Shown one piece after another: positions 12,067 to 17,699 of a stretch of DNA of 64,000 bases (its first letter is position 1; each line of letters starts with the position of its first letter). Source of the DNA: Rhodopseudomonas palustris HaA2 (GTDB lineage Bacteria > Pseudomonadota > Alphaproteobacteria > Rhizobiales > Xanthobacteraceae); contig NC_007778.1 of NCBI RefSeq assembly GCF_000013365.1, positions 62,001-126,000 of the forward strand, in the 5' to 3' direction. Under the pieces are notes generated by a model that was not told the DNA's origin, did no database searches, and saw nothing but the letters and a program-made list of their open reading frames with translations. A program made the translations under genes and the position numbers.

Positions 12067-12936
12067 TTAACCCGTCAAATTGCGCCCCGTCACCGCCCGA
12101 AAAACGCCACCCAGATCGCGGCGTGGCGGCTCCGGGACGGCGAGCCCAGAGGCCCGCATCAGCGCGGCGACGTCGTCGCCCTGGCCTTGGCCGATCTCCA
12201 CCACCAACGCCCCGCCGCGCCCGAGCAGCCGCGCCGCTTCGGGGATGATCCGGCGATAGGCATCGAGGCCGTCCTCACCGCCGTCGAGCGCGCGGCGCGG
12301 ATCGTGCTCCCGGACCTCGACATCGAGCGCGGCGATCGCGCTTGCCGGGATGTATGGCGGGTTGGAGACGATCAGGTCGAACGAACCGCCGAGCGCAGCA
12401 GCGTAGTCGCAGGCGACGAAGCCGGCGCGATCGGCAAGGCCGAGCGCGGCGGCATTCGCCCGCGCGGCGCGCAAGGCGCCGAGACTGATGTCGGTCGCGA
12501 CGCCGAACGCGTCCGGGCACTCCGACAGCAGCGCCAGCAGGATCGCGCCGGAGCCGGTGCCGAGATCGAGAATCAGCGGGCGGGCGCGCGCCTCGGCGCG
12601 CAGATGGTCGAGCGCGGCCTCGACCACGGTCTCGGTGTCGGGCCGCGGCACCAGCGTGTCGTCGGACAGCCGCAGCGCCAGCCCCCAGAATTCGCGGACG
12701 CCGAGGATCCGCGCCACCGGCTCACCGGCCAACCGGCGCACCGCGAAGGCGTCGAGCCGCTCCGCCTCGTCCAGCGTGAGCACCCGCTCGGCCTGCACGA
12801 TCAGTCCGGTGAGATCGAGTCCGGTCGCCTCGCCGATCAGCAGCCGGGCGTCGAGCTCGGCCGATTCGATGCCGGCGTCCTTCAGGCGCCGGCCTAGCGC
12901 GCGGCGGGCTTCGGCGACAGAATTCTGTTGATCCAC
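12067..12936 (-). CDS. prmC: Release factor glutamine methyltransferase PrmC (HemK)
   Basis: About 289 residues. It methylates the glutamine of the GGQ motif in release factors RF1 and RF2. It has an N-terminal helical domain, the SAM-binding LDLGTGSGAI and the substrate-binding NPPY motif (SNPPYIPASAI), then ALDGGEDGLDAYRRI, all typical of PrmC. The start is uncertain: GTG 12936 is chosen, and TTG 12945 is also in frame and overlaps the stop of the inserted upstream gene (TTGA). Neither has a strong Shine-Dalgarno, so translation may depend on coupling. Its normal upstream neighbour, prfA, is 1.3 kb away because of a low-GC two-gene insertion. Confidence 0.93.
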   Translation of the reverse strand: MDQQNSVAEARRALGRRLKDAGIESAELDARLLIGEATGLDLTGLIVQAERVLTLDEAERLDAFAVRRLAGEPVARILGVREFWGLALRLSDDTLVPRPDTETVVEAALDHLRAEARARPLILDLGTGSGAILLALLSECPDAFGVATDISLGALRAARANAAALGLADRAGFVACDYAAALGGSFDLIVSNPPYIPASAIAALDVEVREHDPRRALDGGEDGLDAYRRIIPEAARLLGRGGALVVEIGQGQGDDVAALMRASGLAVPEPPRRDLGGVFRAVTGRNLTG

Positions 12937-12941
12937 CAGTC

Positions 12942-13721
12942 TCAACTTCGACGCCGTGCCAAGGTATCAATATGCATGAGCCTTGCCGAACTTCTAAGTG
13001 GCGCAGATAAATTATTCGAGCCATTCACCTGATAGTTAAGCTGGCTGGATTTTTCAAAGCTCTTTTCAGAGGGTGGCACGACCTTCCAAGTCATGCGATT
13101 TCGTTCGCCGAGTCCATCTTCAAAGGTAATGACGCGACAACGCTTGTCGGCGGGGTCCTCCACCATAGAAAAGTGGTTAGCTTCAAAATCCTCAACTCGA
13201 ATACAGCAAAATTCGCCCCAATAAGGCCTCCCAACTATGTGCCCGCATGTACCGTACTCGCTTCCGCAAACAGTACAGATCTGCTTCCTTACAATCAGGC
13301 CCGCACTAAAGAAAACTTGAGGCGGGAAAATCGTTCTCTCCAAATCTTCAAGTTGCTTGCCTCTCTCTCTTACATGAGTGAACCCTTTATGCGCTCGGGC
13401 TGCATCTGATGCAGCCATCTGCGCTTCGATCAAATAGTCCCAAGCCTTATCGGGCTCTTCCTGTTTGAGCAGAATCCACATCTTCAACTCGGAGATAAGC
13501 ATGCGCAAAACACATTCAAAACCGAGGGCGAGGTTCGCCAGAACTTCGTTCTGAGAGTCGATCGAATCTGCCTTTAAGGAGCTGCATTTCTCCAAAGCAC
13601 CCGAGAGTGCAGAGCAAGCCTCTTCCTGTAGGGAGCTATCCCTAGTGAGGATGCAGAATATTTCGTTTTCTCGGACGATCTGATTAAGTTCGTCAATTCG
13701 GCCCGTTGCGTTGTCGACCAT
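12942..13721 (-). CDS. Unknown protein with CxxC...CxH...C zinc-binding motif (islet gene B)
   Basis: 259 residues, family not recognised. Residues 1-130 look alpha-helical. The C-terminal part carries C149-x2-C152-x6-C159-x-H161-x10-C172 in the context KQICTVCGSEYGTCGHIVGR then PYWGEFCC, a probable zinc knuckle. It is followed by FSMVEDPADKRCRVITF. I chose ATG 13721, preceded by AAGGTGG, rather than the longer frame to 13823, because that frame would overlap the upstream gene far more. It overlaps islet gene A by 29 bp and ends 5 nt before the prmC GTG. Base composition (about 45-52% GC in sampled stretches) is far below the neighbours, so recent transfer is likely. Function unknown. Confidence 0.8.
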   Translation of the reverse strand: MVDNATGRIDELNQIVRENEIFCILTRDSSLQEEACSALSGALEKCSSLKADSIDSQNEVLANLALGFECVLRMLISELKMWILLKQEEPDKAWDYLIEAQMAASDAARAHKGFTHVRERGKQLEDLERTIFPPQVFFSAGLIVRKQICTVCGSEYGTCGHIVGRPYWGEFCCIRVEDFEANHFSMVEDPADKRCRVITFEDGLGERNRMTWKVVPPSEKSFEKSSQLNYQVNGSNNLSAPLRSSARLMHIDTLARRRS

Positions 13722-14202
13722 CTGCCACCTTCTTGATAAGGGGGGCGAGAGCTTCCAGTCCCTCCAAATCCCCTTCGTAGTCAATCTTCTTGCACGCGTA
13801 ATCGGCAGAATCTTCGATAACAATGCTTAGTTTGACGCTCTTTTTTCCTGAAATTCCTTTGAACAAATCGGAAATGAAGTTGGTCAAAACGCCGAGCGCC
13901 AAGGATACCGCGGAGGGATTCTCTGAGAGAAGGCCGGCGGAAACAAATATGGTCGGGGCCAGCCACTCATAGCTGTTGTTTTGAATGTAGCGGGCTCCCT
14001 CAAAAAACTCCTCCGAAAGCGGCAAGCCTTCATTTCGGAAGAGAGCTCTTACGGTCGCTCCTTCAGAAGGGATGAGAAAATCCGACCTACTTTGCGCGAT
14101 TGTGAAATTGGAAGGCAGGACTGCAAATCCCTCTGGAGCCGCAATTCCAAATTTCTTCACATGGTATCGGACGCAAATAAAATCAGAAATTTCGGTTGCC
14201 AT
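13693..14202 (-). CDS. Unknown 169-residue protein (islet gene A)
   Basis: 169 residues, family not recognised. Residues 80-115 are hydrophobic or amphipathic (LAPTIFVSAGLLS, then VSLALGVLTNFISDLF). The C-terminal third, VKLSIVIEDSADYACKKIDY followed by EGDLEGLEALAPLIKKV, reads like a small alpha/beta domain. Low GC (about 47% in a sampled 60-bp block) matches gene B. It starts 70 bp after the prfA stop and its end overlaps gene B by 29 bp, so the two are one translational unit. No signal peptide is seen. The overlap and foreign composition would suit an effector-partner or defence pair, but nothing in the sequence proves it. Confidence 0.78.
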   Translation of the reverse strand: MATEISDFICVRYHVKKFGIAAPEGFAVLPSNFTIAQSRSDFLIPSEGATVRALFRNEGLPLSEEFFEGARYIQNNSYEWLAPTIFVSAGLLSENPSAVSLALGVLTNFISDLFKGISGKKSVKLSIVIEDSADYACKKIDYEGDLEGLEALAPLIKKVADGRQRNGPN

Positions 14203-14272
14203 GGTTGAGTCGCCCTAGAAAAGGATAATGAGGCACAACATTAGTTCGATTGTAAATTCGCTTTTGTGCGGC

Positions 14273-15358
14273 TCAGGCCGCATGGCCCTGCGCCGCGAGC
14301 TGGGCCACCTGGTGTTCGGTGGTCAGCGCGTCGATCAGCTCGCCGAGCGCTTCGCCGGCGATCACCTGCGGCAGCTTGTACAGCGTCAGATTGATGCGGT
14401 GATCGGTGACGCGGCCCTGCGGGAAGTTGTAGGTGCGGATCCGCTCCGAGCGGTCGCCGGAGCCGACCTTCTGCTTGCGCTCGGCCGAGCGCGCCGAATC
14501 GATCCGCTGCTGCTCGGCGTCGTAGATTCGCGAACGCAGGATGTTCATCGCCGAGGCGCGGTTTTTGTGCTGCGAGCGGCTGTCCTGCATCATCACCACG
14601 ATGCCGGTCGGCAGATGAGTGATGCGGATCGCCGATTCGGTCTTGTTGACGTGCTGGCCGCCGGCGCCCTGTGCCCGCATCGTGTCGATCTTGAGATCAT
14701 CCGGCTTGATGTCGACGTCGACCTCCTCGACCTCGGGCAGCACCGCCACGGTCGCCGCCGAGGTGTGGATGCGCCCCTGCGTCTCGGTGTCGGGCACGCG
14801 CTGCACCCGATGCACGCCGGATTCGAATTTCAGCTTGGCGAAGGCGCCACGCCCCTTCACCTCGGCGATGATCTCCTTGAAGCCGCCGACGGTGCCCTCG
14901 CTGGCCGAGATCACCTCGACGCTCCAGCCCTGCAAGGCCGCGAATTTCTCGTACATCCGGAACAGGTCGCCGGCGAACAGCGAGGCCTCGTCGCCGCCGG
15001 TGCCGGCGCGGATTTCGAGCATCACGTTGCGCTCGTCCATCGCGTCCTTCGGCAGCAGCGCGACCCGGATCTGCTGGATCAGGTCCTCGCGATGGGCATC
15101 GAGCGCGTCGCGCTCGGCCTCCGCCATCGCCCGCATCTCCGGATCGGTCGCGGGATCTTCGAGCAGATCGTCGATGTCGCCGAGTTCGTCGCGGACTTCG
15201 CGATAGGCCTTCACCGCCTCGACCAGCGGATTCAACTCGGACAATTCGCGAGTGATGCGGACGTAATCATTGGCCGCGACCTCGCCGAGCAATTGCGCTT
15301 CGAGCGAGGCATGATGCGCGAGCAGAACGTCGAGCTTGGCTTCGGGCAGGTTGGACAT
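14273..15358 (-). CDS. prfA: Peptide chain release factor 1
   Basis: 361-residue RF1, which reads UAA and UAG stop codons and triggers peptide release. The GGQ loop is in [20 protein letters not shown], the codon-reading P-x-T motif is [15 protein letters not shown], and [20 protein letters not shown] is the family signature. Start ATG 15358 gives the standard length. It lies 73 bp downstream of ptsP and is normally followed directly by prmC, which methylates its GGQ glutamine. Here an unrelated two-gene islet separates them. Confidence 0.97.
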
Positions 15359-15431
15359 CGATCGGTCTCGGACAACGAAATGCGAGAATGGCAAGGATGG
15401 TGGCGACGCGGCGGCGCGGACAACAGCGTCG

Positions 15432-17699
15432 CTACAAGGACAGCCCGTGAGCCTCGGCGAATTCCGCGAGCTTGTGCCGGATCGAGACGCTGCCGGCGGG
15501 CGCATCGAGCAACGGCGAGATCGCCGCCTCGGCCTTGGCAGCGTCGAGTTCGAGGATCATCGCCTTGACCGGGCCGTGCGACACCGCCGACACCGACAGC
15601 GCCCGATAGCCGATCGCGATCAGCGCCAGCGCCCCCAGCGGCTGCGACGCCATCTCGCCGCACAGCGACACCGAGCGCTTGGCGGCCTTGGCCTTGCGCA
15701 CGATGTCGCGCAGCGCCCGCAGGATGGGGGCCGACAGTGTGTCGAAGCGGTCCGACACCTTGGCGTTGCCGCGGTCGACCGCATACAAAAACTGGAACAG
15801 ATCGTTGGAGCCGACCGAAATGAAGTCGACCTTCTTGAACAGTTCGTCGAGCTGATACAGCAGCGCCGGCACTTCGACCATGGTGCCGACGTCGACCCGC
15901 TCCGGCAGCGTGTGGCCGTGCTGGCGCAGATAGGTCAGTTCGCGCTCGACGATCGCCTTGGCGGCGTCGAATTCGGCGACTTCCGAGATCATCGGAAACA
16001 TGATGCGCAGATTGCGCCCGCCGCCGGCGCGCAACAGCGCCCGGATCTGGCTGCGCAGCAGGCCCGGCCGGTCCAGCCCGAGCCGGATCGCCCGCCAGCC
16101 GAGCGCAGGATTCTCCTCGACCACGGTTTCCATATAGGGCAGCGCCTTGTCGCCGCCGATATCGAGCGTGCGGAAGGTCACCGGCTTGGATCCCGCGGCA
16201 TCGAGCACGGCGCGGTACAGCGCGAGCTGATCGCTGGAGCGCGGCAGGCTCTGGCCGATCATGAACTGCAGCTCGGTGCGGAACAGGCCGACGCCGGACG
16301 AGCCGGTGTCGTCGATATGCGGCAGGTCGATCGCCAGACCGGCATTGATCATCAGGTCGATCGGCTGGCCGTCGGTGGTGACGCAGGCGAGATCGCGCAG
16401 CGCGGAATACTGCGCCTGGCGCCGCGCGCGAAAGCGCACCCGCTCGGCATAGGCGGCCTCGACCTCCGCGGAGGGGCGGACATAGATCGAGCCGGAGGTG
16501 GCATCGACGATGATCGCGTCGCCCGGATCGGCGATGCCCGGCGCGTTCGGCACTTCGCCGATCGCCGCAATGCCGAGCGCGCGCGCCACGATCGAGACGT
16601 GCGAATTCGCGGTGCCCTCTTCGAGCACCAGGCCGCGCAGCCTCTTGCGGTCGTAGTCGAGCAGCGCCGCCGGGCCCATCGAGCGCGCGATCAGGATGGC
16701 GTTGTCGGGCAATTGCTCGCGGGACGGTGCGTGATTCTGGCCGACCAGCTGGCGCATCAGCCGGTGGCCGAGGTCCTCGAGATCGTGCAGCCGGTCGCGC
16801 AAATACGGATCGGTCGAGCGCAGCATCCGGGCCCGTGTGTCGGACTGCACGCGCTCGACGGCGGCTTCCGCGGTGAGGCCGGTGGCCACCGCCTCGTGCA
16901 GCTTGTGCGACCAGCCGTGGTCGTTGGCGAACATCCGGTAGGCTTCGAGCACGTCGCGATGCTCGCCGCCGTCGGCGACGTCGCCGCGCTCCAGCAGACG
17001 GTCGAGATCGGCGCGCAGATTGGCCAAAGCGGTGTCGAGCCGCCTGATTTCCTTCGGCAGATCCTCGGCGATGTAGTTGGTGATGACGACGCGCGGCTCG
17101 TGCAGCACGACATGGCCGAGCGCGATGCCGTCGGACAGGATCGCGCCGGTCTTGTGGATCGAGTGCCGTGCCGCGGGCTCGGCGCCGGGCTGCGCCAGCG
17201 CCGACAATTCGCCCGAGGCGATCATTTCGGCGAGCACCATCGCGGTGGTCTGCAGCGCCTCGACCTCTTCCTCGACATAGGTGCGCTTGGCGCGGTTCTG
17301 CAACACCAGCACGCCGAGCGTGTTGCCGGCGCGCAGAATCGGCACGCCGAGGAAGGAGTGATAGATTTCTTCGCCGGTCTCCGGGCGGAACGAGAACGCC
17401 GGATGGCTCTGCGCGTCGGAGAGATTCAGCGGCGTCGCCTCGGAGGCGACGAGGCCGACCAGGCCTTCATGCGCGGTCAGCACGGTCTGGTGCACCGCCT
17501 CGCGGTTGAGGCCTTCGGTGGCGTAGAGTTCGAGCGTATTGTCGACCCGCAGGACGTAGGTCGAGCACACCTCCGCCACCATATTGGCGGCGATCAGCAC
17601 CACGATCTTGTCCAGGCGTTCCTGCGCGGAGACTTGCTCCGCCATGGTTTCACGGAGCCGTCTCAGCAAGACGCGGGGGCCGCCCGACGTGCTCCGCAT
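15432..17699 (-). CDS. ptsP: PTS phosphoenolpyruvate phosphotransferase EI-Ntr
   Basis: 755-residue enzyme I of the nitrogen PTS. It takes phosphate from PEP and passes it to NPr and EIIA-Ntr, linking carbon and nitrogen status. An N-terminal GAF domain (about 20-165) precedes the EI part. The phosphorylated His is H367 in [17 protein letters not shown]. The PEP-binding barrel shows [26 protein letters not shown] and the active-site Cys in [14 protein letters not shown] 17699 follows AGAGGAGATG and fits the family length. It lies between lysC and prfA, as in related rhizobia. Confidence 0.95.

Follow-up and report, generated by a model that had tools for sequence, protein, structure and literature searches.

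The window analyzed here, a stretch of 64,000 nucleotides from Rhodopseudomonas palustris HaA2, contains an islet of two genes (12942-14202, minus strand) between prfA and prmC. These genes, which we denote A and B, are co-directional with the flanking genes. The features of the locus are as follows:

14273-15505, minus strand: prfA (NCBIfam peptide chain release factor 1, 2.2e-151)
14203-14272, minus strand: left junction; the islet starts directly past the prfA stop, and TGAGCCGC is common to the window and congener L004
13693-14202, minus strand: gene A, an ORF of 169 aa, the 5' gene of the pair
13693-13721, minus strand: overlap of A and B, 29 bp
12942-13721, minus strand: gene B, the 3' member of the pair, an ORF of 259 aa when started at the ATG at 13721
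12915-12945, minus strand: right junction, at the first codons of prmC, with candidate starts TTG 12945 and GTG 12936
12067-12945, minus strand: prmC (NCBIfam RF_mod_PrmC, 3e-77)

A reading of this DNA from the sequence alone had picked out the locus as a low-GC gene pair inserted between prfA and prmC. The GC content of the islet is indeed 48.9%, with a 400-bp profile that drops from 0.67-0.75 to 0.475-0.51 across it, and GC3 is 0.53 in A and 0.52 in B versus 0.86 in prfA and prmC; 1327 bp separate the prfA stop from the prmC start in this genome. The shared direction and the 29-bp overlap of the two genes likewise follow from the ORFs. The longest mechanical frame of B reaches 13823, and the ATG at 13721 was taken as its start. 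Inspection by eye revealed purine-rich sites upstream of both starts, AAGGTGG (13726-13732) for B and AGGGCGA (14210-14216) for A.

The border of the islet at prmC required correction, the right junction lying at the very start of that gene. Of the two candidate start codons, TTG 12945 would overlap the stop codon of B, and GTG 12936 is the better match to congener L004. Because prmC starts at or beside the B stop in either case, its translation may depend on B.

Foreign origin of the islet

The expectation that prfA and prmC normally sit side by side was borne out: in all 15 congeners (the same-genus genomes searched, excluding the genome under study), the two genes adjoin without the islet, and prmC either starts at most about 120 bp from the prfA stop or overlaps it. 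Neither A nor B was detected in 295 other sampled genomes of the family, B was not found in 296 other genomes of the order sample, and in the phylum sample B was found, besides its own genome, only in G793. This distribution rules out an ordinary or core gene pair. The low GC and GC3, together with the absence of the islet at this place from 15/15 congeners and of its genes from the 295 family genomes, support a foreign, horizontally acquired islet, in agreement with the sequence-only reading. Neither of the two outcomes that this reading would have counted against itself was observed: the islet is absent at the same place in the 15 congeners, and no housekeeping family was assigned to either protein.

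The proteins also remained unassigned more generally, as that reading had found them: no match of A or B reached the Pfam, NCBIfam, or PADLOC cut-off, and PADLOC-DB 2.0.0 contained 0 families for the window A and B. Among 10 proteins from relatives, the PADLOC search returned one chance-level match, to Csn2 (0.0013), which was discarded as below the cut-off. Single-member Pfam matches (EF-hand, dynein MT, Mg_chelatase, DUF722, and others) were scattered and below the cut-offs, and were discarded as well. A literature search that covered few subscription papers returned no paper for the accessions of the pair and, by title or the start of the abstract, none on such a pair for prohead or head maturation protease combined with defense.

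The A-B pair as a mobile unit

Adjacent A and B genes in identical order and strand were identified at 11 distinct loci, including this window; the genes overlap in nine of these and are separated by 17 bp in two. This count leaves out L028 (the same element as the virus Humcor2), L038 (one base off L037), and L029 (both genes broken), and keeps L027 despite a frameshift in B near the N-terminus. Searched by tblastn, plasmids and phages yielded A and B next to each other on a plasmid of Rhizobium jaguaris, with 46% identity to the window pair for A and 44-48.5% for B, and in the Halorubrum pleolipovirus Humcor2, as well as B on a Haloterrigena plasmid and a weak B match on enterobacterial plasmids, with an A-type gene preceding B in each. 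According to its description (PMC7911831), Humcor2 is a Halorubrum coriense provirus that was induced and turned up in a stock of Hardycor1, a predicted siphovirus. The pairs of the Rhizobiales contig L027, of Acinetobacter and Pseudoalteromonas, of the integrase-bearing IMG/VR contig L037, and of the Pseudomonadota genomes G793 and G996 came from additional scans. Most similar to the pair of the window is the one in G996 (A 48%, B 49%), outside its class sample, followed by the Rhizobium pair. When 148 genomes from the family of G793 were searched, matches to the profile of A fell in the same two genomes as B. A scan of genome contigs with two narrow patterns found 3 loci, a poor guide to frequency. 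No relative emerged from viral contigs, for which the queries were single proteins, A1, and a DNA pattern for the zinc knuckle; the only match to the pattern (L031) arose by chance from a different reading frame within other genes.

The pair thus spans Pseudomonadota and haloarchaea and occurs on plasmids, on a prophage-like, integrase-bearing IMG/VR contig, in an archaeal pleolipovirus, and in chromosomal islets. The co-occurrence of the homologs as a pair, proposed from the window alone as a point to be checked, is seen at 11 loci. Over 55 comparisons among these loci, the identities of A and B correlate (r = 0.90, Mantel p = 1e-4, n = 11), and between two close copies, dN/dS is about 0.12 for A and 0.18 for B, values that point to purifying selection on both genes, although the start of B in L027 is frameshifted. 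The A-B pair is a mobile unit carried between replicons.

Some copies are degraded. In Paraburkholderia unamae (L029 7462-8599), A contains a stop and B is split over two frames; in the Rhizobiales contig (L027 6338-7015), the frame of B is broken close to its N-terminus and A is intact. In both Rhizobiales loci, a small gene of about 93 residues lies directly upstream of A (L023 11670-11951, L027 5483-5776); it was not seen upstream of the window A.

The enterobacterial form is found in 24 of 5,426 Escherichia coli genomes. Among 72,556 plasmid records, enterobacterial A was detected in 205, and B in 205 enterobacterial ones by genus counts (211 for all genera), the two counts not being matched record by record. 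These members lie amid insertion sequences, on resistance-type plasmids. The form that ends in SEC-C (L026 4552-5816, L034 8001-9265) is common on enterobacterial conjugative plasmids, adjoining an FRG-domain gene. One Klebsiella record carries a B gene split by an IS1 element. The PLSDB record NZ_CP077849.1 (L032, L056, L058), labelled a plasmid, comprises 3,658,084 bases with 45 features listed and looks like a misfiled chromosome.

The gene neighborhoods bear on the suggestion of the sequence-only reading that the pair is a defense-type or selfish module. On a Klebsiella plasmid, it lies amid the PADLOC candidates PDC-S15, PDC-S31, and PDC-S11, and on the Haloterrigena plasmid, near PifA (4.3e-126) and an OLD-like ATPase-TOPRIM protein. 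The gene beside the pair in G793 encodes a Schlafen/AlbA_2 protein (Pfam 1.1e-7) that had no PADLOC match at 1e-3. The neighborhoods were compared with a second region of the same replicon at the 7 of 11 loci for which such a region was retrievable. At 1e-15, 74 PADLOC models were matched among 96 neighbor ORFs versus 8 among 107 control ORFs, counts that run too high, as a single gene can hit many models; since, in addition, only 25 of the 74 matched models were listed, loci were counted instead. The matches of the neighbor ORFs, pooled over the seven loci, also included RT, and those in the control regions were housekeeping-like (DinG, SspA, DndA, mad2, and mad3). Counted by locus, clear defense-gene neighbors were present in two of the seven, and recognizable ones were absent in the other five; the window islet, flanked by prfA and prmC, has no defense genes beside it. 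What stands of that suggestion is a compact, foreign, traveling pair, with a defense or selfish nature as a hypothesis.

Domains of proteins A and B

Protein B comprises two recognizable parts:

13329-13721, minus strand: residues 1-131, N-terminal helical-repeat domain of five helices (AlphaFold2, block pLDDT 71-93 over residues 11-130)
13119-13328, minus strand: residues 132-201, serine/zinc segment of the head-maturation-protease type (assigned from phrog_16951, hhalign, and invariant residues)
13305-13307, minus strand: codon of Ser139, which aligns with the serine in the EVS(V/I)G motif of the proteases

Residues 195-259 are predicted to be disordered. The best solved-structure matches of the helical domain are generic helical repeats and Bro1 domains, with Z-scores up to 12.3, within the range that the tool rates, for helical bundles, as possibly chance. 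When B was compared with the structures in PDB and BFVD, no hit reached E 0.001, and no protease was found by this route alone; the VIA structure list was filled by the helical domain and is uninformative on the serine/zinc segment.

The segment, a finding beyond the sequence-only reading, is instead apparent from profile comparisons. The window B matches phrog_16951 (6.8e-8), and so do five of the six further B proteins that were scanned; two B proteins also match phrog_18299, "head maturation protease" (2.5e-4 and 3.7e-4). With hhalign, the profile built from 8 B proteins, all collected without recourse to protease similarity, aligned over 65 columns with that of 8 phage proteases at a pairwise E of 2.1e-14. 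With Cys and His masked, the match persisted at 5.1e-9, and Cys and His alone gave 5.5e-4; in a column-shuffle control, 20 of 20 shuffles scored 0.39 or worse (0.39-0.95). Given the masked match and the shuffles, the likeness exceeds the zinc pattern, and homology of the B segment to phage head-maturation proteases is, at the level of sequence profiles, well supported.

The shared part (B residues ~138-202) consists of the serine motif, a CxxC...CxH knuckle, and an E-x-S-x-V strand; the conspicuous residues in B are S139, then C149, C152, C159, and H161, and then Y167 and C172. Ser139, presumed to correspond to the catalytic residue, is invariant in 11/11 B proteins, with Gly141 completing an S-x-G motif in 10, and the four zinc ligands are invariant in all 11. 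With Ser139 and these ligands as a testable residue set, the A-B pair is a family that deserves a name even without a function.

The zinc-knuckle prohead proteases (phrog_16951, phrog_18299, phrog_80; Cormatin, fHoEfm07) have in addition an N-terminal half and a place in the head operon, and B has neither, carrying the helical domain in place of that half. In 8 of 8 phage proteases, a His that we take to be catalytic follows a G-x-x-h-h stretch in the N-terminal half (six in one column, two one column off). The aligned 65 columns cover only the serine/zinc part, and no counterpart of this His was detected in B; the sole invariant His of B is the ligand in the zinc pattern, and across the 11 loci there is no further one in A or B. 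As to genomic place, the phrog_16951 member encoded by Flavonifractor phage Cormatin carries the annotation "major head and protease protein" and has its gene between those of the portal and major head proteins, a member in a Paenibacillus plasmid-borne phage region adjoins head decoration and major capsid genes, and the Enterococcus phage fHoEfm07 relative, annotated "head maturation protease," is encoded just upstream of the major head protein. The window B adjoins prfA and prmC instead, and the other annotated loci are also free of head genes. The zinc-knuckle head-maturation proteases found here come mostly from phages that infect Bacillota or have no recorded host, not from phages infecting the hosts in which the pair occurs. 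The function of phrog_16951 is unlisted in PHROGs, and its members (L035 4106-5104, L036 4668-5930) lie at the place of the head-maturation protease.

The B proteins of Enterobacteria, Acinetobacter, Pseudoalteromonas, and the IMG/VR contig end in a CxC...CC pattern resembling the SEC-C motif (the C-terminal peptide of SecA/YchJ); however, all matches seen were below the Pfam cut-off, and the window B does not contain the motif.

Protein A offers fewer clues. A hydrophobic segment at about residues 83-117 is followed by a strand-strand-helix tail, and the only invariant residues in the alignment of 11 proteins are M1 and G144. A profile search with A returned no match. The AlphaFold2 model is weak (mean pLDDT 53) and too poor for its structure matches to carry meaning. 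Matches of A to the solved structures of 8hwi Cap12 and H2B were weak, differed between members, and were rejected. The best 19-residue hydropathy value is 1.37 in the window protein, the usual transmembrane threshold being 1.6. As this threshold is exceeded in only 4 of the 11 members, action of A at the membrane is weakly based.

Possible function of the pair

From the anatomy of the pair, which is well supported, we infer a function with some caution. The mobility of the pair, the nature of its carriers, and the captured head-protease segment favor an anti-phage or superinfection-exclusion module. Our tentative reading, to which we give somewhat less than even confidence, is a horizontally acquired two-gene module that moves between replicons as a unit and protects its carrier, be it a cell, a prophage, a plasmid, or a non-tailed virus, against tailed viruses. 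Counting against it are the scarcity of clear defense neighbors (two of seven loci), the failure of structure comparison by itself to reveal a protease in B, and the hosts of the phages with zinc-knuckle proteases. That the serine is kept and the His is missing argues for a mimic sharing the binding partners of the protease. B would then lack proteolytic activity and, imitating the real protease, would bind one of its partners in assembly (the procapsid shell, the scaffold, or the protease itself), and this binding would either poison head assembly or report it. A, small and with its hydrophobic segment, would be the membrane-side partner or effector, a role that is the weakest step of the reading. 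In its full form, which we consider doubtful, the proposal is that of an undescribed immune module of bacteria, archaea, and mobile elements including a non-tailed virus, in which a captured, dead serine/zinc protease half would enter or read the head-assembly line, with a hydrophobic partner at the membrane.

Several other explanations of the same anatomy were weighed. The B segment might be a reused, zinc-stabilized scaffold whose phage ancestry is irrelevant, with the pair serving mobile elements in regulation, stability, or stress rather than against phages. Such reuse would fit the short shared stretch of 65 columns lacking the His half, the five of seven loci devoid of recognizable defense neighbors, and the setting of the enterobacterial members amid insertion sequences and on resistance-type plasmids; but the serine, for which zinc binding has no use, is kept in 11/11 proteins, and the pair is borne by, among others, a prophage-like contig and a virus, both with reason to exclude rivals. 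We regard this explanation as rather unlikely. A toxin-antitoxin or addiction pair, with A as a small membrane-active toxin and B as its neutralizer, would fit two small genes that overlap, share a direction, and occur on plasmids and in islets, with 205 plasmid records for enterobacterial A and 205 enterobacterial ones for B. However, the Pfam, NCBIfam, and PADLOC scans matched no toxin or antitoxin family and no DNA-binding domain in B, and it would be unusual for an antitoxin to have 259 residues, two domains, and a viral protease segment. We consider this explanation improbable, and the related toxin-immunity option raised by the sequence-only reading gained no positive evidence.

That B is an active serine peptidase, its His supplied by a partner, is suggested by the invariant Ser139 and the S-x-G motif in 10/11 proteins. 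A was ruled out as the missing His half: it has no similarity to the protease profile (E 0.56, probability 0.1), and no His column is common to 5 or more of the 11 A proteins. With the sole invariant His of B engaged in the zinc pattern, a split protease is very improbable. We give still less credence to a satellite-like helper, by which the element would redirect the heads of a helper phage for its own packaging. The presence of a head-protease segment on mobile elements is what such a helper would call for, but the pair also occurs in chromosomal islets, on conjugative plasmids, and in a pleolipovirus, the last of which, to our knowledge, has no need of tailed-virus heads, and no packaging genes were noticed adjoining the pair in the annotated loci.

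Among known systems, the two-gene EACC1 conflict system resembles the pair in that its 5' gene encodes a hydrophobic helix between alpha+beta parts and its 3' gene a peptidase-type domain; the system is reported there mainly from multicellular bacteria (PMC7159879). A search with the EACC1 model PF19953 gave no match at E 1 or better in the 11 A proteins; the same model gave none in the genome under study or in 14 control genomes, so that the search was without a positive control. No Pfam caspase model, the peptidase type of the EACC1 3' gene, matched any B scanned. Capsid-sensing immunity, as reported for CapRel (PMC9712102) and a TIR-based system (PMC11312562), is keyed to phage head proteins, as we propose for the pair. 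In contrast to these systems, with which no common domains were recognized, B resembles a head protease rather than a capsid receptor, and sensing by the pair is a proposal.

If the pair does protect its carriers against tailed viruses, the defense would exploit the head protease, a step common to many tailed viruses, and viral morphogenesis machinery would have been turned against viruses in bacteria and archaea alike. The presence of the pair in a non-tailed archaeal virus would then be explained by the exclusion of tailed rivals from the host. The pair further suggests a function for phrog_16951. In the course of these comparisons, a protein of Microcystis phage MACPNOA1 annotated as "nicotinate-nucleotide diphosphorylase" (L040 3941-5026) was found to resemble head-maturation proteases (tblastn 1e-5), without the zinc knuckle; this annotation is probably wrong.
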